DNA of 64,000 nt, taken from a virus. Under the pieces are notes generated by a model. It made no database searches and was not told the origin of the DNA. It worked only from the letters and a program-made list of their open reading frames with translations. How positions within the stretch are numbered: the stretch's first letter is position 1; each line of letters begins with the position of its first letter. Of this stretch, positions 14,002 to 53,634 are shown piece by piece. The stretch is taken from the IMG/VR virus record IMGVR_UViG_3300024344_003321, positions 33,425-97,424 of that record; one strand, written 5' to 3'. The position numbers were made by a program, and so were the translations under genes.

Positions 14002-14198
14002 TGGATGAAGAAACAAGGTATCACACAGGTGATGTCGTTACAATAAATAATATAGATTGGATTATTGAATCTGTTACAATGAGATTTGGTAAGATAATGA
14101 ATTACGCGTTAAAATACAAAGATGAAAATGGTGATAGGGAATTTGTTAATATTGAAACGGGTTCACTTGAAACATTAATTAAATTAGGAGAGAGTTAA
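14001..14198 (+). CDS. Unknown 65-residue protein
   Basis: Start ATG 14001 overlaps the previous stop (TAATG) with GGGGGAAA just before it. The sequence TGDVVTINNIDWIIESVTMRFG suggests a small beta-barrel, SH3-like fold. It ends in TAATG overlap with the synthetase-like gene. No function can be assigned. Confidence 0.6.
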   Translation: MDEETRYHTGDVVTINNIDWIIESVTMRFGKIMNYALKYKDENGDREFVNIETGSLETLIKLGES

Positions 14199-15031
14199 TG
14201 AAAGATATGTTCGCATATGATGCGGTAGTATATAAAATGAGGCAGTATTTTAGAGAAGCAAAAGGATTTGTCGAAGTACCGGCACAATCCCGACAGTCAA
14301 TATTAGCAGCGTGTGAGGACCCAAAAACAATCAGCCAGTATGTTTTTAGTGGAACGAATTGGCCACTACCACAAACAGGACAAATGTGGTTGGAACACGA
14401 GCTGTTGAAAAACCCAACGATAAAGGGTGTATTTTGTGTAACTACATCATACAGAAATGAGCCAAATCCAATACCAGGGAGACACGATAAAATATTTCCA
14501 ATGTTTGAATTTGAATCACATGGTAATATGGATGATTTGATAACCATTGAAGAAGAATTATTATCATTTTTAGGGTTTGGTAGTGTGTTAGATTTCAGCA
14601 CTGTAAAATATGAAGATGCTTCTACAAAATATGGTGTATCTGAATTAGATGTTGATGAAGAAGAAAAACTATGTAAGGATTTCAGTACTTGTACATTCTT
14701 AACAGACTTTCCTCAAAGAACACATCCATTTTGGAATATGAAACAAAATGAAGTGGATAAAAATCTATTTAATAAAGTAGATGTCATAATGCATGGAATG
14801 GAAACAATAGGAAGTGCTGAACGGAGTACAAATGTTGAAGAAATGCGACATCAATTTCATACAATTTCAGATGGTGAATATGCGGGATTGTTATTTAATC
14901 ATTTTGGAAAAGAACGAGTTGAAGCTGAATTAGAGGAATATTTATCCCATGATATGTTTCCAAGATTTGGAGCAGGAATTGGCGTTACTCGTATGGTACG
15001 GGCAATGGAATTATCAGGATTATTAAATTAA
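14198..15031 (+). CDS. Class II aminoacyl-tRNA synthetase-like catalytic core (AsnRS/AsnA-related)
   Basis: 277 residues forming only the class II catalytic fold, without an anticodon-binding domain. Motif 2 is TSYRNEPNPIPGRH with R86, followed by FPMFEFE; motif 3 is GAGIGVTRM at 258-266 with R265. The layout resembles archaeal asparagine synthetase-related (AS-AR) proteins, which derive from AsnRS/AspRS and can activate amino acids without charging tRNA. Possible roles are asparagine synthesis, aminoacylation of a phage tRNA, or attaching an amino acid to a modified base. It lies 0.6 kb before an unusual tRNA. GGAGAGTT precedes ATG 14198. Confidence 0.82.
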   Translation: MKDMFAYDAVVYKMRQYFREAKGFVEVPAQSRQSILAACEDPKTISQYVFSGTNWPLPQTGQMWLEHELLKNPTIKGVFCVTTSYRNEPNPIPGRHDKIFPMFEFESHGNMDDLITIEEELLSFLGFGSVLDFSTVKYEDASTKYGVSELDVDEEEKLCKDFSTCTFLTDFPQRTHPFWNMKQNEVDKNLFNKVDVIMHGMETIGSAERSTNVEEMRHQFHTISDGEYAGLLFNHFGKERVEAELEEYLSHDMFPRFGAGIGVTRMVRAMELSGLLN

Positions 15032-15627: not shown

Positions 15628-15711
15628 TGGAGTATGGTGGAATTGGCAGACACGCTATCCTGTTTAGATGGTGATATTTATATCGTGGGGGTTCGATTCC
15701 TTCTGCTCCAG
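15628..15711 (+). tRNA. tRNA with Leu-like class II body but apparent GUU (Asn) anticodon
   Basis: A cloverleaf can be drawn by eye: acceptor TGGAGTA/TGCTCCA (15628-15634 with 15704-15710), D arm GTGGAATTGGCAGACAC as in bacterial tRNA-Leu, anticodon stem CTATC/GATGG with loop CTGTTTA (15660-15666), a long variable arm GATA..TATC (15673-15684), T arm GGGGG TTCGATT CCTTC. The loop puts GTT at 34-36, an Asn anticodon, with an unusual T at 37. Position 73 is G (15711), normal for Asn but not for Leu. CCA is not encoded. The tRNA itself is well supported; identity is uncertain. Confidence 0.85.
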
Positions 15712-15737
15712 CAAAAATAAAAAAAAGAGGTTATAGT

Positions 15738-41050: not shown

Positions 41051-44000
41051 ATGGCATCCAGGGGTAAATATTTAATTATATTAGCTGATTTGAGTTGGTT
41101 TTATACTTTGATTGAAGAGCATAAACCACCACGCAGTTATATATTAAAAAATGAATGGGACGAATATGTGTCATCGTGTACAGATACAGATGATTGTGGG
41201 AAATTCATGGAACCTACATGGTATCACAATTGTGTGTGTGAAAATGCTAATGGGTGCTGCGAATCTCCTGGGTGCACCGATGAGATGTGGCAACAAGGAA
41301 TGACCCCAGAGTGGATTTGTGAAAATCCCCATGACTTCATGGAGTGGGAAACTGCTAATTTTATAAAATTTAAAAGAACACACGGTTATGAAGTTGAAGT
41401 AGCATATTTAAGAAATAATTATAATGTTTCTATACCAAGTGGTGAGCCTGAAACTAGCCATATAACAGCATTAGATTGGAGTGAGCACTGCAATGATTCT
41501 CCATTTGTCGTTGATGGTCAGGAATGCAACCCTGTATCTGCTGTAATGGAATATTTTTCAGAAAACCCTGATTTAAAATTTGTTTTATTGGTGGGAACAG
41601 TTAGCCACGGTGCTGTCAGAAAAGAAGGGCAGATAGGGGCCATACCTCATGAGGACATATGGCTTACTCCATATGTAGGTATAGAAAGTGGTCAAACGGC
41701 ACCAACTGACGAGGCACGACACAACATGACAGACCAAGATTATTATATAGAAAAACATATAAATCCGGGTTATGGAATCGATTTTGACGCATGTGATATG
41801 AGGGGGGATTATTTCAGTAAAAACCCAAGTTATTCAGTTGGGAGATGGAGTGTTGTAGGTACAGAACCTCTGCGGCGCATGAAATTAAAAACGATTCAAT
41901 ATACAAGACTCGAAATAGTTGATAAATATTACAGAACATTAAGCAGAATAGTGAATAGTGTGGGGGTGGGTAGTGACACATTCTCCGCTATCTCACCCGA
42001 AAATGATTGCATACCAGGGAAAAAATATTTAGATAGAGTTCAACTTCTGGCGTCCACAGCTCATGCGAGTTCAGCGGGCAGGAATATGATTTATATTGGA
42101 GAAAAATTGTATGAGAGTGGAGTATGGGACACTTATACATGCGACCAAACAAGTGACGCTAAAGAAAATATTCAATATAATATGGGGGACTTATCACTTA
42201 AACTACCATTTTCCAGTACTATGAATCCAGCAATCGGAGCCCATTATCTGTATTGGCCATCCCATTTTTGGTTTTACAGAGGTTGGTCAGGTAGTGATGG
42301 TTTTTCAGAACCGTACTGGAGGTCAAACGATATTTGTAGTGAATCTGAAGATTTTAAATATGCTTATGATGGTATGGATGGTGCCCAATCTGGTATTCCT
42401 ATAGAGGCAGGCAATTTTCGACTATATTGCACTAATAATGGAGTACTTACCGATGTCAATGGTATCAGCTCCAGTGTAGCAAATCCGTGGATGCCAACCA
42501 TAAACTTTTTTTGTACTTGTGACTTGGGGGATTCAGATTCTTGGGGGTGGTGGGTTGACAACTGGTTAAACTTAGGGCATCCTACATTGGCTGGAAGTTT
42601 AATCACTGGACCAGATGGTGATGACATGTTCAATTACATTAACCCAGCTGGGGCAGTGGCTCACATAGGTCCTAGTGATTTTCATTTAAGAACAAGATAT
42701 AACAATCCACTTTGCGATGGGTTTGCTAATGCTATATTAGATAATAATATTGAATTTATCGGTGAAGTTATTAATTATGGTAAGAGGCAGTTATTCGAGA
42801 TTTATAATTCCATTGTAATAGACTCTGATATAATTATTGGTGGTTATAATGCAGTCAAGTGTTACGATGCTTGGTATAATTTATTTGGCGACCCAGGTCT
42901 CCCAATATGGAGAGTTCAACCTGATATTATTACAGAACCAAATGATTTCATATTAGATAATAATGAAACTCCAATTACAAATTTATTATCAGCTCAAACT
43001 ACAATAAATGCTACCCCTTTGATGACTTCGAGTTTCAGGATTAAACCAACTGGTGAAGATGTTGATGAAATAGTACATGGCACATATGCAACAATAATGT
43101 ATGCTGACCAATTAATAGATACAGTTTTTGCAGATGAGGGAAGTGGTTTATTACACTTCGATTTAATTAACTATACAGAGTGGCAAAACAATAATGAATA
43201 TTGTAATCAATATTTAGAAGTTCCTGAAGTTGAGGGTGGACCATATTGTGATGCAGTTGATGGGTGTGCATATTCTACATCATTCCCTCCAAGTGAAACT
43301 GACGGTTGTAAGCCTGTATTTGATGTTTGGATAAATAAATTTACACTACCTCAATATGAACAAAAGCATGTACAGATACTAATAGATTATATTTATGTAC
43401 AGGGCTGCACAGACGAATTAGACCAAAATTATAATCCTGACGCTGTGGTTTACAGCTCTGAATTTTGTAGTAACATGAGTATATATGAAAATAGTATAGT
43501 CATTACAGAAATTAATGATAGGTATGTAGGAACTGAATTTATTGAAATATTTAATAATAGTAATAGTCCCATAAATCTTGGTGGATTTAGAATTTATGCA
43601 ATTGGATTTACTAATACTGATGAGATGCCAAATATAACCATACCCCCACATGAATTCATAGTATTGGGTAGTCCCGAGTCAACTATTCAGTTAGATTTAT
43701 TTAATGACCATTTAGTTTCAGGTGTCAATCTATTCAGGTGGCCTGAAGGAAACTCTATATGGAACCAAGGTGAATTAATAAGAATTACAGACCCAAATAA
43801 TAATGAAGTTGATTCTGTTGATACGAGTTTATTATTAGAGTGGCACGCATCACCACAGAATTCGTCATGGGAATTAACTACATTAACACAGGAAAATGGT
43901 GGAAATGCATACCCTGACCATTGGATTGAAAGTGAGTTTTTTGGTGGTACACCTGGTAAACGGTATTTAGATTGGCGAGAAAATGCATGGAACCATATGC

Positions 44001-44209
44001 TAACTGAGTGTAGAGGCATAGCACAATGTCATGACCAGTCACCTACTATATGTCAATTGATTTGGGAAAGCAGTGATGGTATATGTATGCCGCAGTATGA
44101 TGCTGATGAAGTTTTTTCGTGTGTACGAGTTCTTGAACTTCAACCCTTGGTTTGTGAATATTGGGTAATTGAGTTTGGTGTTTGTTTGGAGGGGTGTGAA
44201 CTTGGATAG
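41051..44209 (+). CDS. Gingipain-like (peptidase C25) protein with lamin-tail domain, active site degenerate
   Basis: 1052 residues. Residues about 180-620 follow the C25 plan: FVLLVGTVSHG, DYYIE...YSVGRWSVVGTEPLRRMKLKTIQYTR, then INFFCTCDLGD with C488 and C490, GAVAHIGPSDFH, and NLFGDPGLPIW near 610-618. The catalytic His segment, normally YrGHG, reads FYRGWSG with W412, so protease activity is doubtful. One GCTDELDQNYNPDAV repeat follows, as in the giant protein downstream. Residues about 817-975 form a lamin-tail domain (VITEINDRYVGTEFIEIFN, NLGGFRIY). No classical signal peptide. Cys-rich. Probably a surface or virion protein. Confidence 0.72.
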   Translation: MASRGKYLIILADLSWFYTLIEEHKPPRSYILKNEWDEYVSSCTDTDDCGKFMEPTWYHNCVCENANGCCESPGCTDEMWQQGMTPEWICENPHDFMEWETANFIKFKRTHGYEVEVAYLRNNYNVSIPSGEPETSHITALDWSEHCNDSPFVVDGQECNPVSAVMEYFSENPDLKFVLLVGTVSHGAVRKEGQIGAIPHEDIWLTPYVGIESGQTAPTDEARHNMTDQDYYIEKHINPGYGIDFDACDMRGDYFSKNPSYSVGRWSVVGTEPLRRMKLKTIQYTRLEIVDKYYRTLSRIVNSVGVGSDTFSAISPENDCIPGKKYLDRVQLLASTAHASSAGRNMIYIGEKLYESGVWDTYTCDQTSDAKENIQYNMGDLSLKLPFSSTMNPAIGAHYLYWPSHFWFYRGWSGSDGFSEPYWRSNDICSESEDFKYAYDGMDGAQSGIPIEAGNFRLYCTNNGVLTDVNGISSSVANPWMPTINFFCTCDLGDSDSWGWWVDNWLNLGHPTLAGSLITGPDGDDMFNYINPAGAVAHIGPSDFHLRTRYNNPLCDGFANAILDNNIEFIGEVINYGKRQLFEIYNSIVIDSDIIIGGYNAVKCYDAWYNLFGDPGLPIWRVQPDIITEPNDFILDNNETPITNLLSAQTTINATPLMTSSFRIKPTGEDVDEIVHGTYATIMYADQLIDTVFADEGSGLLHFDLINYTEWQNNNEYCNQYLEVPEVEGGPYCDAVDGCAYSTSFPPSETDGCKPVFDVWINKFTLPQYEQKHVQILIDYIYVQGCTDELDQNYNPDAVVYSSEFCSNMSIYENSIVITEINDRYVGTEFIEIFNNSNSPINLGGFRIYAIGFTNTDEMPNITIPPHEFIVLGSPESTIQLDLFNDHLVSGVNLFRWPEGNSIWNQGELIRITDPNNNEVDSVDTSLLLEWHASPQNSSWELTTLTQENGGNAYPDHWIESEFFGGTPGKRYLDWRENAWNHMLTECRGIAQCHDQSPTICQLIWESSDGICMPQYDADEVFSCVRVLELQPLVCEYWVIEFGVCLEGCELG

Positions 44210-44369
44210 GAGCGGTTTAACAAAAGAACAACAGCAAGAACTATTTAAAATAACAGAAGAAATTTTAAATGCAGCCGAAAATGTGGTTGATGATTATAAT
44301 ACACACCCATCTGAAGCCAGTGGTAGTATAATACAAATTCATCAAAATTCTCCCCTTTTAAATAATTAA
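44202..44369 (+). CDS. Unknown 55-residue helical protein
   Basis: Start TTG 44202 is chosen because GGAGGGG lies 7 bases upstream; it overlaps the stop of the gingipain-like gene. LTKEQQQELFKITEEILNAAENVVDDYN is one long helix. No motif. It may be coupled to the upstream gene. Confidence 0.5.
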   Translation: MDRSGLTKEQQQELFKITEEILNAAENVVDDYNTHPSEASGSIIQIHQNSPLLNN

Positions 44370-44403: not shown

Positions 44404-44411
44404 TATAAATA
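44404..44411 (+). promoter_or_regulatory. Candidate T4-type late promoter box TATAAATA
   Basis: Exact TATAAATA in the 61-base gap before the giant gene, 20 bases upstream of its TTG, matching the distance seen before queD. TATATTTG at 44389-44396 resembles a Bacteroidota -7 element but lacks a matching -33. Chance occurrence is possible in AT-rich DNA. Confidence 0.4.
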
Positions 44412-44430: not shown

Positions 44431-47400
44431 TTGGCAATAACATTCCAGCAACCTGATATAATATATGGATTACTATACCCTGATGCAAATCAAAGCGCTC
44501 AACCATTTGGTGGTGCAAACGAAGCGCAAATTAATAATACTGCAAATGAGATTTGTAATGGTCTTGGCTATGATTTATATGAGTATGAAACTATCGATAC
44601 GCAAAGTAGTTTATACTCTGGTGTAAATCAAGATAATGTATGGATACGGAGTTGGAGTACAAATAACGATACATGGGTTGGGCAAAACGGGATTGGTACA
44701 AGTCAAAGCCCCGGGTGTGAATTGGGCCAATTATGTTCGCACCTATTCGCTAGTTTAACATGTTATAATGAAAGTGAAGTTCCTCCTGAACCAATACTCG
44801 GTTGCACAGATTTAACAGCAGATAATTATAACCCACTTGCTACAGAAGATGATGGTAGTTGTGACTTTTCTAGCGGATTTTCTATTACATATTATAGTGG
44901 TATGTGTAGGTACTGTACATTACTACCTAGCTTATCAGGTAATGTTATTGGGAGTGGCATGACACCCGAAGAATGTTGCACGGCCGCTTTTGGAATGAAT
45001 ACTGCAACCCTAAGTTCGGACTGTAATTCTGGGTCATGGCTTGGATATTATTGTTCGTGGACAAGTATCGTATCAGGTTGTATGGATGTTAATGCTTGTA
45101 ATTACAATTCTGAGGCAACAGAAGATGATAATAGTTGCCTATATGGAATTGATGAATGTGGTGTATGTGGAGGTGATAATTCAACTTGTGCTGATTGTGC
45201 AGGTGTTCCGTACGGGAGTTCATCATTAGATGACTGTGGTGTATGTGATGGTGGTAACGATTCTATGGATGAATGTGGAGTATGTAATGGTGATAATTCA
45301 AGTTGTATGGGTTGTACAGAACCATCTGCGTATAACTATGACCCTTATGCAATAATAGATGATGGTTCATGTTATGCTGATAAATGGGGTTGTATAGATA
45401 CGAACGCGTTAAATTATGATGCTGCTGCTACATATCAAACTTCATTTGAATTTCCAAGAACTGCTGATGCTGGACATTATCAGCGATATGAATATATTAT
45501 CAATGATACACCATGTATATACTCGAATAGTAGTCATTCAATCGGTATGACGGACCCACAAACAACAACGGTGCCCGATATATCATCTCTATATATAACA
45601 AATAGAAATGTTAATATTCAGTTTCAATCAGATGAAAGTCCAGTTTATGAGGAATGGAATGGTATTGATTTATACTTCCCAACATGTCATGTAGGCTATA
45701 GTAATTGTATAAACAGTTTTGGTTACACTAAATCTCAAGCAGTACCATATAAACTAGCATGGGATAACGGTGATAATACATGGTTTGGACACGGGGCAGC
45801 AAATAGTTATTGCCAACAATTGGGTTTACCAGCAAAATGGGACGAAGGTGAAGTAAGTAATCAAACATACGATTTTGGTTTAATTCATTACGATTATGAA
45901 AATGACCAATTGTCATTCGATAATCTTATGGGCATGCACGGGTATCGAGGGTTGTATGATGGTGTTGGGTGCCAAGGTCCTGTTACTGCTAACTCACCAT
46001 GGTGTGATGCCTGGGTTTATTACGCAAGGACAATAGAATGCTTTATATCAGTACCGGGTTGTACAGACCCAACGGCTGATAATTATGACGATACAGCAAA
46101 TTATGATGATGGTTCATGCCAATGGGTGGGTTGTTCGGATTTAGTTGCCGAAAATCATTATTGTGAATCATATGCACCAACTATTTTATATTCTTCACCA
46201 TATATTTGCACAAAGTGGTTTAGTAATAACGAATTTAATCTTAGGACATTCCCATCAAGCTCACCGACTGGTGCATGGTATTCTACTGAATTAAACAAAC
46301 CACATATATTAAATGATACGAATACTAACCAAGAAGTTTTATATTTACCTGGCACCATAAAATTTACAGGAAATTCTTCATTTTATAGTTTAGATTCTAA
46401 TTTAAATGACGATGGTTCATGTGAGTATATAGTGGGTTGTACTGACATTGAGGCAGCAAATTATAATTCCGAAACGACTATGGTATGCGATGGTGAAAAT
46501 CACAATATATCTACTATTGGAGTCGATGACTGCACAGCACCGGGTGTTAACTGCTGTTGTATATATGATACTGACGCTCCAATTGGTAGTATTGACTTAT
46601 ATTATGACGGCGAAATACAAGTATCACCTCAGAATAATATTAATGTTTATGATATTCAAGTTTGGAATGATGATGAACCACAATTAATGTTAATGATAGG
46701 AGCTACGGATGACTTTGAAGGTGATATTTCATTTACGGGTACACTAACTGAATCTGCAATAAATACTATTCCAGGTGGTGATACGGGTAACCTTAATATA
46801 TACGGTAATCTTGCTGCATCAAATATAATCACAACATCTAATTTTTCAGGGACACTTGATAATGGTTCTGCTGCTATAAATATTTTTCCGTATATATCTG
46901 TTGATAAATATACTATCCCAGGTGACTATGGGGTTATAATTAATGTACAAGTTTCAGATAATTTTAATAATGTATTATCTATGCAACAGGAAGTGACATT
47001 TTCAATATTATCGCCAAGAAAATTAGTATGTATGTATAATACGACTTTACCAGACACCTCGGAGACATTATATTGGTATCAAGGTATTTATACAGCAGAT
47101 GGTGATAGATTAAACGATTGTGGTAATAATAGTAAATGTAAAAATTCTTGGGATGGCCACAGCCACACTGGCTCAGGTGGGTGGCAATATAGCCAAAATA
47201 ATCTAACATGGGTTAATTCAAACTACACATTACCATTACCGACTGATTATGATTCTTGTAATACTTTTTGTTTTTTCTTTTACGGTAGGTATTGTGATAT
47301 TATTGCTCCAAATCAAATGTGCGGTGTTTCTTTTGCTGGACAGCAATGGACAGATAAATTAAATGAACTTAATGGGGGTGCAAACTCACCATTTTATGTT

Positions 47401-50400
47401 CCAAATGCATATTCATATTCGAGTGGTTTAGATAGTGGGTTTACACATGAATTTTGTCAAAATGTATTAGGGTATGATTCATATATTAGTGACACATTAA
47501 TTGACGATAATCTATCGCATTCGGGGTGGACAAGTAATTTAGCGACAGTCACTGGAGGTACTTGGGGTAATTCAACGAATATGTTACCATATTATGAGGG
47601 TATGGATAGCTGTGTAAGTGGGTTCATGAGTTCTCAGCAAACATGGAGCTGGGCTGTTACATTTGAATGTACTCGTGATGAAAATATTCAGTTAGGTTGT
47701 ACGAATATATTATCTCCAAATTATAATATTAATGCAGCAATAGATGATGGTAGTTGTCAAATTGAAGGGTGTTTAGACCCCCAATCATGTAATTATAAAC
47801 GAGAGGTAACAATACATAACCAAGATTTATGTAGATATCCAATCCATGAAAAATTATTTACTGTGGGTTATAATTCAGAAAATATCAATTCATTCACTAA
47901 TTTACCAGAATGGGTTCCAATACAAGAAATAGTTACACTTGGGGAATATGACACTAATGAGTTGTATTGTTGTGATAATAATACTGATAATATGGAAGGT
48001 AGGATGGATGATTCCTCTATAATATTATGTTGTAGGGATTCTAACAATAATGGTATATGTGACCCATTAATTGTACCATCTACTCCAGGTTCAGATAATT
48101 GGAGGTCAAATATAAGACCTGCATGCTTTAGTTGTGAAACTCTAAATACAGATGGTAATACATGGCTCCCATTAGAATATTCAACTATTGAAATATCTGG
48201 GTGTACAGATTATTTGGCTGTAAATTATATGTCATCTGCTACAATTGAGGGTGGTACTTGTTATTATGAAGGTTGTATGGATGATACTGCATGTACATAT
48301 TTTTGTGACTTAAATCCAGATACTTATCCATGCCAAGGTAGTGAAATGCACGGGTATGAATATAATATTTCTCATGTAGTGAATAACCCTACTATGTGTA
48401 AATACAAAGGAATTTCAGAAGATTATCCTTGTTCATGTGATATGTCGGATGTACCCGTGGTATATTACAGTGATTCGGATAATGATGGGATTGGGTGTTG
48501 TGATGACTCAATATTAGCTTGTTCAGCAGATAAACCTATAAAATTCGTTACTACTTGTGATGAAAGTAGCTCTAGCTGCACATGTTTTGGTATTGTCGAT
48601 GATTGTGGTGTATGTGATGGTAACAATGAATGCATAGGATGTACAGATGTTGGAGAGTATGATTTTGAATGGTTTAATACTACCATCGTATCTGATTTTG
48701 GAACTTATAGTCAATTGACAGGTTACCCCTTTTATCCACCGGCACAATTCCCCGCGGGTGATTATGATTATTTAGATAATACGGCAGGTGCAAATAATGC
48801 ACTTCTATCTTCTGCAAACATAATAACTATTGATGATGGTTCATGTGATTATTGTAGATTTGGGTTAAAAGATGTATCGTGGTATATTAATAGCGATTCT
48901 GGTCAATTAGATTGTTTAAATGACAGTTCATGTTATAGTGAAACTCCAACGGGTTACAATCGCATAAATTATACATGTGATATTGGGTTTCCTTTTAATG
49001 TAGATAATATATATTCGGGGACTGTGATATATAGTGATGGTCAAATTATTGAGGGTGGTTCTCTTGATGCAAGCACGCCAAGGAAATGTTGCGAACGAGC
49101 AACAAATTTGTTGGCGGAAAGTATGGGTAATTCTTATAGTTTAGGTTCAACTCCACATTTACAGGGTTATATTAAATCCTCTGCTGGATTAAATGGTAGA
49201 GTAGGTCAATTTTGTTGTGGAGATGTAGAGGGTGCAAACACTGGAATTGGTGGGTGTACTGATAATCATGCTGATAATTTTAATCCTAATGCTATACACG
49301 ATAACGGGTTATGTATTTATTATGGGTGTAACAATCCGATTGCAGATAATTATAATGAAGATGCTACTCATGATGATGGGACTTGTATTTATACAGGTTG
49401 TATGGAACAAGAATTTTGTAACTATGACCCGATTTATAATAAACCGTGTAAAAAATGTTGTATTTCACCAAATCCAAATGGTTGTGGTGATGGTATTATT
49501 CCTGGATGTGATAGCGACGGGACAATAGGCCCACCTAAAGTTGCGTATTATCAAGATACAGATGGTGATTGTTATTGGAATACACTTGATAATAGTATAA
49601 ATGGTACTCCGATTTTATGTGATGAAGTATGCCCAGGTGATGTTGTTCCAACTTATAATGGATTCGATTGTGTTTTAATATCAAATGGTTGTGGTCCAGA
49701 TTTATACCCAGATGTTCCTGTAGGTGAAGAAATATTTGGTTGTATGGATAACACTGCTTGGAATTATAATGCTTTAGCCAACGCAGATAGTGGAGATTGT
49801 ATATATACCCATTCGGGTGTCGGTGAAGAGTGTATTTGTAATGATGCACCTGATATTGATATTGAATTTTATTATTTTGGGTCAGACACAGCCGACCCAT
49901 GGGTTCATTGTACTGGCTGGGGTGGCACAGGTGATTCTCTGGGTTGGGTACCACCTGTATATTCGTATGATATAAGTGATATGCCACTAACAAATGTTGG
50001 TTATATAAATACTGCAGAAAGTTGTTGTGCATACCAATATGGTGGTAATGAGTTTTATTATAATGCAGTAGTACAATCACCATTCAGATATTGTTGTTGT
50101 TTTAACACTTTAACGGGGTGCACAGATACTGTTGCTTCAAATTATAATCCATATGCTCAAGAGGATGATAATAGTTGCGAATATCATATATGGGTAGATG
50201 TTGCAACAACAATTGGTGGTCAAGGGGCCCCACCTGATTTTGATTGGGATGGCTCAAAGAATTGTAATGATTTATGTGTATTGTATGGTGCTATCAATGG
50301 AGTTGAATCAACTTGTTCAAATCAAGGGTGTGCAGGATTCCATGATAATGTAGCTTTAGATGAAGATTACTCGGAAGTGGTTATGGGTGATGTTTGGCAA

Positions 50401-53400
50401 GATGTGAGTAATTATTGTCCATTTGTTATTTACTTTGGTCAGCAATGCGATACTTGTGATGATATTGGTGGTACATGGAATATATCTAGCAGTGCATTTG
50501 ATTCACCATTAGAAACATGTCAAGCAGTAGGTGGGGGAGAAGGTCCTGCAATATGGGTCGGTCAAGTCCCAGATTATCAGATGAATGGCCAAACTCCATA
50601 TCATAATCAAGATACAGGTGAGGGATTTGGTATTTATTGTTGTAACCCACCAGCAGAGTTGGTAAAAGGGTATCATACAGGTGGTACTAAATACATGTCA
50701 CATTTCGGGGGAAACATAAATGAATTTTGTGAATTAGACAGTGATAACATTATAGATTTATTTTTATGGTTTTCGGGATATGACCCATGTCCAGGGTTGA
50801 CTGACCCAATGTCTTGTGATAATTATTCTACTTTGTATGGTGACCATATATGTAAATGGACTACTGAAATAGGTAGCCCGTTGCAGATGTATTATAATTG
50901 GGATACATGTAATGGGCAAACATTTGAACCGTTAAATCACCCGTTGGCTCTACAAGAAGATTGGGTAGGTGCACCTGTTTGGCCTACATCTGTTCAATGT
51001 TGTTGTTCTTGGGACGAACCAATATTAGGTTGTATGGATGAAATTGCATATAATTACGATTCGGATGTAAATTTCCCATGTGGTGCACCATTCTATGAAT
51101 GTGGTGTTGATTGTGATTGCTGTCAATATTCGGGTTGTATGGATTCAGATGCAACAAATTTTAATATTAATGCTACACTTGATTGTAATGATGAATTAAT
51201 GGGTAATGATAATTCTTGTTGTGAATATGAAATGGGGTGTATGGATTCATCTGCTTTAAATTATAATCCAGATGCAACATATAATAATGGTATCGATTGT
51301 ATTTATGGGACAATAGGGTGTATGGACCCAATTGCATCAAATTATAATCCTAATGCTACACATGACTATTGTTATCCAATGACTGGGATTTATTATGCAG
51401 GATATCCCGCAGGAACAGCATGGGCTGATGTTATCCCAGAGTGGGTGGGTAGTGCACTCGATGGAGCATTATGTCAATGTGGTAGTGGGTTAGATGATAT
51501 TATTGACCCAGGGGAATTGGGGTGCGATATATGTATTATTCCTGATAGGGACCATGACCCTGGTGATATTGGTATAACTGGGTTTCCAAATAATAATTTT
51601 CCGGGTCAATGTAGGTCAAGTTGTACATTTTTACCTGAAATAGAGGTGGGTTATTTTCTGAATGGGCAAAATATGGCGACATCGGGCTTAGATGAAATAT
51701 ACAATGTTCATTATGTGTCCGAAGAACAAATTGCTACTTTGGGGGCTATCGTTACTTTAACTGGAATTACTAATGAAGTTATGTGGATAGAGTGGGGTTA
51801 TGAGTGCAGTCCAGTTGTCCCAGTCACACCGACATGTGAAGAACAAGTGGTTTGTAATCCTAATACTAACAATGCGTTAGCTAATTTACAAATTTCTATT
51901 GATGAAGCTAATAATTCGTATGAACCACAATTGATGTTACCATCATTTGAGTCTGCTAATTTATTTCCGAGTTATTTAACGGTACATGCAACTGTATATG
52001 ATTCAAATAATCAATCATCTTCAGGTGAAATTGTATTATTAATACATGGTTCAGATGATAATTATACTTATTGTGAACCAGAAGATGATGGGGGATATTG
52101 GAATCATTGGGATTATGACCCATCAAACGGCGCACCTTTACCTGACACTCCACCACCTATAACCGTTTATCTATCTGATATCCCTGGTCTTGCAGAAGCT
52201 TTTGAAGATTTGAACCACGGTGTTTCAAATTGTTATTTACCTATTGTAGATTTCATTAACAATAATATGAATGAGCAACCACCATATGGTGGAGATTCAA
52301 TCGGGCCGTTTCAGGGTTGTCCTGCATTTTGTCCTATGGATAGAGGAGTATCAGATTTTGACTGTTGTGGTGACAGTAATGAAATGACATGTATGTGTGG
52401 GCAATATGGTGATTGCAACCATTTAAACAGTTATAAATATAATTTATGTCCACCAGACATACAAGCAATCCAAGAGTTATGGCCATTTGCCATAGATGAT
52501 ATAGGTATAGGTGGTGCATCTCCAGGTAGTCTTGTACAGATACCTCCTTGTTATTATTCTTGTAGTTTAACACCGATTGATATAAGGTGGGCTACATTTT
52601 TTAGAGGTAATGATTCTTGTAATTGGTCAACGAGTGTGTCATGGGATGGGGGCTCATTTGATGGTGAGGATTATGGTTGGCCAAATTTAGCTTGTACAGT
52701 TTGGGATTGGGATGGGGAAGATTGTATCCCAAATTCTGTTCCAAGTGTTATAACTCACTTTAATCAGTTTGGTAATCCATGTGGTTGGACATATAGTGGG
52801 TGGAGAGGGTGCTGGAATTTACCTGAACAAGAATTTGGAGACCAGGCATATCAAGATGCTTTAATTAGTTTCATAGGATTGTTGGGAGAAGATAATTGGA
52901 CTATTACTGATATTCAAGACCAATTGCCCTGGGGTTTTGCTTTGGAGGGTGGATTGGAAGGTGATTTTGCCGAACCTTTGGATGAAATTCTACAAGAAGA
53001 AGCACCATTTAGGCCTGATGTTCCTTTTGAATATGATATTGAATTTAATGACATTCCCATATCCATAGATACAGACTGGCCAGTAGAAGGGTATGACGAT
53101 GCATGGTTAGATGACCAAAATTGGTCTCAGCCCTCAGATGCTTATGCAGATGTCAGTGGTGGTTTCGATGGTGGTGTATATGACCAGAATGGAGAAGCGA
53201 TTGCATTTGAAGCTTCAGGGCTTGTACCAACTGAGTGGACGGGTGCGTGGGAAGATTTTTTCTCTTCGGATGTTTATGATGATTTTTTCGAGGCTCAATT
53301 GAATCTGTACACTTTGTTTGGTGAATTCCAAGAGTGGGCGGACACTATGCCACCAAGTTTTCAAATGCTGCTTGATATGGCTGAAGTTGATTTTTTCGGG

Positions 53401-53634
53401 GGGACACCTTCAACATTTGGGATGCCTGAAGGTTATGAGGCTGAATTTCAACCAGGTATAGTTTCTGAATTATTAGATGATATTCAGAATGGTACCCTCA
53501 CGGGAGATGAGGCGTTAGAAACCCTTCATCAGCGAGCTCATGGGATTATGAGCTATTATTCAGCAGATTATCAAAATTGTTCAAATCCCACTACATGTAT
53601 TTTAAATGGTGGGCATGGGCCTTACCAGGAGTGA
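44431..53634 (+). CDS. Giant Cys-rich repeat protein, probable adhesin or tail-fibre-like protein
   Basis: 3067 residues, TTG start at 44431 after TAGGAGATAG. Contains about 21 copies of a short Cys module of the form GC(T/M)D..A.NYN..A..DDGSC between residues 124 and about 2315, plus [11 protein letters not shown]-type segments near residues 245-290 and 1390-1410. At least three related modules of some 90-120 residues (near 27-115, 423-540 and 963-1087), each with FC..LG or IC..LG followed by W-rich sequence and a closing C, look like repeated binding domains. An Ig/HYR-like domain lies at about 710-865 ([28 protein letters not shown]). The C-terminal 760 residues lack the repeats and are acidic. 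No signal peptide or anchor is apparent. Confidence 0.8.
44800..51378 (+). repeat. Array of about 21 degenerate GCTD..A.NYN coding repeats
   Basis: Counted by eye in the protein: first copy [18 protein letters not shown] at 44800, last [18 protein letters not shown] from 51316. Copies are about 22-25 residues but spaced irregularly (directly adjacent to over 200 residues apart) and diverged, with Cys, Asp, Ala, Asn-Tyr and a closing DDGSC most conserved. They often come in pairs. The same motif occurs once in the preceding protein, near 43400. Confidence 0.85.

Follow-up and report, generated by a model that had tools for sequence, protein, structure and literature searches.

A phage-encoded peptidase C25-like protein with a lamin tail domain and its relation to histidine-less C25 proteins of Bacteroidota

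Results

The C25-like gene, its domains and its motifs

The virus record comprises 97,424 bases, and the window, that is the whole stretch of DNA analysed here, corresponds to its last 64 kb. The ORF listing gives a single unbroken open reading frame at 41051-44209, coding for 1052 amino acids. An in-frame TAA abuts its ATG, so an N-terminal extension is ruled out. The gene and its domains are as follows.

41051..44209, plus strand: C25-like/lamin tail domain (LTD) protein, 1052 aa, with an in-frame TAA immediately 5' of the ATG
41348..42904, plus strand: Peptidase_C25 match, residues 100-618 (Pfam PF01364, 2.8e-13)
42644..42904, plus strand: best-conserved C25 part, residues 532-618, with GDP at its end (sequence comparison with C25 relatives)
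43403..43471, plus strand: GCTD repeat unit, approx. residues 785-807 (motif scan and sequence)
43490..43822, plus strand: lamin tail domain, residues 814-924 (Pfam PF00932, 5.6e-10)

The Peptidase_C25 match, which spans positions 12-373 of the 374 in the model, scored 50.3 bits (cut-off 23), and the LTD match scored 40 bits (cut-off 34.3). No other Pfam family was found in the protein. The motif scan located GDPG at residue 613 and GCTD at residue 785, with a second GCTD at residue 74. The first-pass annotation had proposed a gingipain-like C25 protein with a lamin tail domain, C25 landmarks running through to GDPG and a GCTD repeat, and all of these were recovered, both domains above the curated cut-offs. 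The C25 homology was strong in the C-terminal half, recognisable near the GRWS motif at residue 264 and weak in between, and big inserts lie between GRWS and the C-terminal GDP part. Gingipains and PorU belong to MEROPS family C25 and PF01364, and the phage protein likewise matches Pfam C25. It differs from them in having large inserts, an uncertain Cys-His dyad and no propeptide, and in apparently lacking export.

No PHROG matched the protein, and no tail-fibre or attachment domain was recognised in it. AlphaFold2 modelled residues 1-643 without a usable alignment at a pLDDT of 32, and the LTD, from two sequences, at a pLDDT of 30.

The phage and the genome slot of the gene

By sequence the contig belongs to a group of T4-like marine phages. 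Its DNA polymerase matches phrog_262. The capsid protein shares about 48% identity with its counterpart in the Flavobacterium myophage vB_FspM_immuto and 49% with that in Microcystis phage Mel-JY01; both are cultured T4-like phages, and the polymerase of Mel-JY01 is 47% identical. IMG/VR contains hundreds of contigs that encode a related polymerase, the closest of them at 66-69% identity. The host is likely Bacteroidota-like.

Several other genes were noted in this phage and its relatives. A class II tRNA-synthetase-like ORF of 277 aa (PF00152) lies at 14198-15031 of the window, near a tRNA-Asn(GTT) gene at 15628-15712. A long cluster at 18167-38883 contains glycosyltransferase, sugar aminotransferase, GDP-mannose dehydratase-like and UDP-sugar dehydrogenase genes, and its content differs among the relatives. 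Just upstream of the window (L003:11753-12985, equal to G000:31753-32985) a lipoprotein-like S1A protease of the trypsin family is encoded (Pfam Trypsin, 1.7e-37) that has AAHC and GDSGGP motifs; G008, G021 and G023 have homologues in a comparable position, with 38-40% identity and both motifs retained. In two related phages (L292:12773-15502 and L305:4937-7702) a protein of approx. 910-920 aa, whose N terminus resembles a signal peptide, adjoins the DNA polymerase; the former has matches to the TonB-dependent receptor Plug and to carboxypeptidase-regulatory domains. Phage G008 has a Cys-rich protein of 388 aa inserted between conserved virion genes (L302:10843-12006), which shows weak Hint/intein-like matches as well as one to AXH.

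The C25 gene lies downstream of the sugar/glycosyltransferase cluster and outside the main virion gene block, in a slot bordered by two small phage genes.

40841..41035, plus strand: small conserved phage gene to the left of the slot (homologues in G008, G011, G018, G021, G023 and L348-L351)
44169..44369, plus strand: small conserved phage gene to the right of the slot, overlapping the end of the C25 gene (beside the left gene in five contigs)
44431..53634, plus strand: giant Cys-rich GCTD-repeat protein, 3067 aa, 6.0% Cys (ORF listing; Pfam)

The slot was empty in five related contigs (G008, G011, G021, L348 and L349), where the two flanking genes are adjacent, at most approx. 200 bases apart. 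In the window the giant GCTD protein follows the right-hand flanking gene, and no Pfam family matched it at E<=1. Before the gene of the giant, at 44404, lies a T4 late-promoter motif, TATAAATA; it was rejected as evidence, being absent before the virion genes of the phage.

In two other phages the left flanking gene is followed by other large proteins. G023 encodes Cys-rich giants of 1845 and 3302 aa at this point. At L351:11705-20520 the left flanking gene is followed by an LTD protein of 240 aa (8.9e-10) with a somatomedin-B match, then by a Cys-rich protein of 1194 aa (L351:12431-16012) with a dockerin type I domain at its end (2.4e-6), and then by another Cys-rich protein, at least 1498 aa long. 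L351 thus resembles our phage in using the same genome slot, in having an LTD without a recognisable signal peptide and in the Cys-rich partners. It differs in that C25 is missing, the LTD forms a separate protein together with somatomedin-B, and a dockerin ends one giant. At this one site, three related phages have giants of extracellular type in which no signal peptide is recognisable. The GC3 of the C25 gene was 0.27, near that of the phage genes (0.20-0.24).

Assignment of the active-site columns

The active-site columns were judged over 21 MAFFT runs with varied settings and reference sets. The candidate positions are listed below; the YRG clade is the group of cellular relatives described in the next section.

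42263..42265, plus strand: H405, alternative for the catalytic-His column (8 of 21 alignments)
42284..42286, plus strand: W412 in FYRGW, favoured for the catalytic-His column (13 of 21 alignments; YRG-clade motif score)
42470..42472, plus strand: S474, nucleophile position with the YRG clade alone as reference (6 of 21 alignments; 12 of 2000 shuffles)
42512..42520, plus strand: C488 and C490, of which broad alignments favour C490 as nucleophile column (C490 in 14, C488 in 1 of 21)

The motif scan placed YRGW at residues 409-412 and FFCTC at residues 486-490. Within residues 300-530 W412 had the top score for the YRG-clade motif, although this was not significant, and His-motif scoring gave no significant match at either W412 or H405. 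The Gly that flanks the His in the motif is missing at H405, which scored under W412 with the YRG clade as reference. The Cys motif of the YRG clade matched LTDVNGISSSVAN (compared with LTFVTSIGCGVAN), which puts Ser474 and not a Cys at the nucleophile position; the score was equalled by 12 of 2000 shuffled proteins. All six alignments with S474 in the Cys column were those that used the YRG clade alone, and inspection of the alignments showed that the distance to the downstream WL.LG motif favours C490 over S474.

The favoured reading of these data is that the catalytic His is replaced by Trp (W412) and the Cys is retained. Loss of both residues is possible, as is an intact H405/C490 pair. 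The earlier statements that the His position is occupied by W412 and that C488 and C490 are the candidate Cys residues were thus borne out in part: both motifs are present and W412 and C490 lead their columns, but the assignment of the His column is insecure with H405 as competitor, and the nucleophile may be Ser474.

The closest cellular relatives are C25 proteins without the catalytic His

C25 relatives were sought among about 400 Bacteroidota genomes, so that the cellular search covered C25 proteins of Bacteroidota only. When the whole phage protein was used in tblastn nearly all matches were to the LTD, and one, L206, was to the C25 part. With L206 as query, and then its relative L239, many C25 proteins were gathered. 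Among these the closest relatives of the phage C25 part form a clade without the catalytic His, here called the YRG clade (L238/L206/L320, L321, L318/L239, L319, L322-L324, L344, L345, L240 and L241). Significant homology of the phage protein was found for residues 520-640, with z = 17 against the closest relative. For this region z was 9.8-17.1 against the YRG clade (L238-L241) and at most 4.5 against any other, His-bearing C25 protein. The split of phage plus YRG clade from the rest was obtained with a UFBoot value of 96 for residues 525-625 and a FastTree value of 0.94 for the full domain, and the phage protein sits on a long branch beside the clade.

The phage protein shares with the YRG clade the C25 landmarks, YRG before the His column, the GP..H.T.YNN and YN..GDP motifs and, in the favoured alignment, the lack of a catalytic His. 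Among the 11 distinct YRG proteins the His column contains Glu in nine and Gln in two (YRGEG or YRGQG), whereas the phage protein has Trp412 (or H405) with FYRG retained; Cys is present in all 11. The spacing from His to Cys is short in the YRG clade, unlike in the phage protein, and an LTD was absent from the two YRG proteins scanned. A DNA pattern for NYRGWG gave eight matches in 396 Bacteroidota genomes, all of them in short chance frames.

The first-pass annotation described the catalytic His as lost in a phage. This could not be upheld: all members of the nearest clade are without the His, and we rejected the idea that its absence arose in the phage. Should W412 occupy the His position, the phage probably inherited the loss from the cellular clade, since that clade already lacks the residue. 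As an observation in its own right, the YRG clade consists of secreted cellular C25 proteins that keep the Cys and have Glu or Gln in place of His, and its members could be pseudopeptidases or enzymes with a changed mechanism.

Searches for viral homologues

No C25 relative was found by tblastn in 50,697 phage records (E<=0.01), nor was a viral C25 homologue found in pattern scans of 2.9 million viral contigs. The patterns were derived from the complete protein and its middle portion as well as from two C25 alignments, and it was by patterns only that the viral collections were covered. A tblastn search of phages and plasmids gave no convincing match, and PF01364 was not detected in 40 related virus records, many of which are fragments. 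Within the literature collection searched, no paper combined 'phage' and 'peptidase C25'.

Export features

Neither Propeptide_C25 (PF08126) nor Por_Secre_tail, the type IX C-terminal tail, was found by Pfam in the phage protein. The best match to the beta-1 motif of the C25 fold in the whole protein lies close to the start.

41063..41098, plus strand: candidate first beta strand of the C25 fold, residues 5-16, GKYLIILADLSW (best beta-1 motif match)

This match was reached by 43 of 2000 shuffles of residues 1-130, which is suggestive. A first strand at residues 5-16 would leave no room for a signal peptide or a propeptide, and the phage protein is apparently without a signal peptide. In contrast, the N termini of the YRG clade are signal-peptide-like, and of the two YRG proteins scanned with Pfam both have Propeptide_C25 before the domain and one has Por_Secre_tail. 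The phage copy thus appears to have lost the export parts that can be recognised in its cellular relatives, as judged from the TAA that excludes a longer N terminus, the candidate beta-1 strand from residue 5 and the absence of Propeptide_C25 and the Por tail. It had been suggested that the lamin tail domain and GCTD repeat are typical of secreted bacterial proteins. This is true of the domains as such, but the phage copy itself lacks the C25 propeptide and the Por tail and apparently also a signal peptide.

Discussion

In this study we describe a C25-like gene in a T4-like marine phage. A host-derived origin of the gene, which had been proposed from its sequence, is supported because the same site is empty in five related contigs and the C25 part groups with a cellular, secreted clade. 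Our best explanation, to which we give a probability of roughly 0.45, is that the gene codes for a host-derived, non-proteolytic C25/LTD protein that serves in binding or as a scaffold and is made without export. A T4-like marine phage, probably with a Bacteroidota-like host, would have acquired the gene of a secreted C25-family protein from a donor clade that was already without the catalytic His. The captured gene would then have dropped its export parts (propeptide, secretion tail and apparently signal peptide), and the C25 part would have been joined to the LTD and the GCTD repeat and kept in a variable cargo slot. The product would be made in the cytoplasm and, without proteolytic activity, would serve for binding or as a scaffold; it would most likely be displayed on the virion or freed at lysis, and outside the cell would meet the cell surface or the extracellular matrix. 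We infer the lack of proteolysis, the virion location, the binding role, the direction of transfer and the host.

Several points speak against this explanation. The His and Cys columns are insecure, and H405 could form a dyad with C490. No tail-fibre domain was recognised, and the slot lies apart from the main block of virion genes. The cytoplasm is an unusual place for Cys-rich proteins, and a closer relative, perhaps with the His, may exist outside Bacteroidota.

The position of the slot also fits a second, unlikely explanation, in which the protein is cargo that is not part of the virion, made late and freed at lysis to act in soluble form, like a lectin or as a decoy, or to alter aggregation or matrix around the host. 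The unrelated giants of extracellular domains (GCTD, LTD, dockerin and somatomedin B) in the slot of other phages are consistent with it, but making so large a protein would be expensive if it were needed neither on particles nor in quantity.

It seems rather improbable to us that the protein works as a clan-CD cysteine protease whose active site has been rearranged, H405 with C490 being one example, and that it is released or carried on the virion to degrade surface or matrix proteins of the host. H405 and C490 do occupy their columns in 8 and 14 of the 21 alignments, and phage-made proteases fit a phage group with an S1A trypsin-like lipoprotein. However, H405 has neither the flanking Gly nor a score equal to that of W412, the nearest cellular clade has no His, and no propeptide is present to restrain activity.

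We consider it very unlikely that the gene is a recently captured, functionless host gene in decay. That five related contigs lack it at the same site and that active-site residues may have been lost would agree with this, but the 1052 codons are free of stops, GC3 is near that of the phage genes, the divergence from the cellular relatives is very long and the same slot in other phages holds intact giant ORFs. An assembly chimera, or host DNA misjoined to a phage contig, would account for domains of host type but is extremely improbable, given that phage genes syntenic with the relatives lie directly on both sides, one of them overlapping the end of the C25 gene, and that comparable proteins are found in the homologous slot of independent contigs.

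The preferred reading of a non-proteolytic, host-derived binding or scaffold protein can be extended to the phage group. T4-like marine phages may keep a dedicated slot for giants built from domains of the host secretome (here a C25-type pseudopeptidase, LTD, dockerin and GCTD repeats), stripped of export and carried on the virion as adhesins, with the C25 fold binding and not cutting. This broader proposal is doubtful. Should virions carry the protein, this would mean that phages of marine bacteria build surface proteins from the secreted proteins of their hosts and that a protease fold has been turned into a binding module. The phage finding also points to a secreted, His-less C25 clade in Bacteroidota with a function that can be tested.
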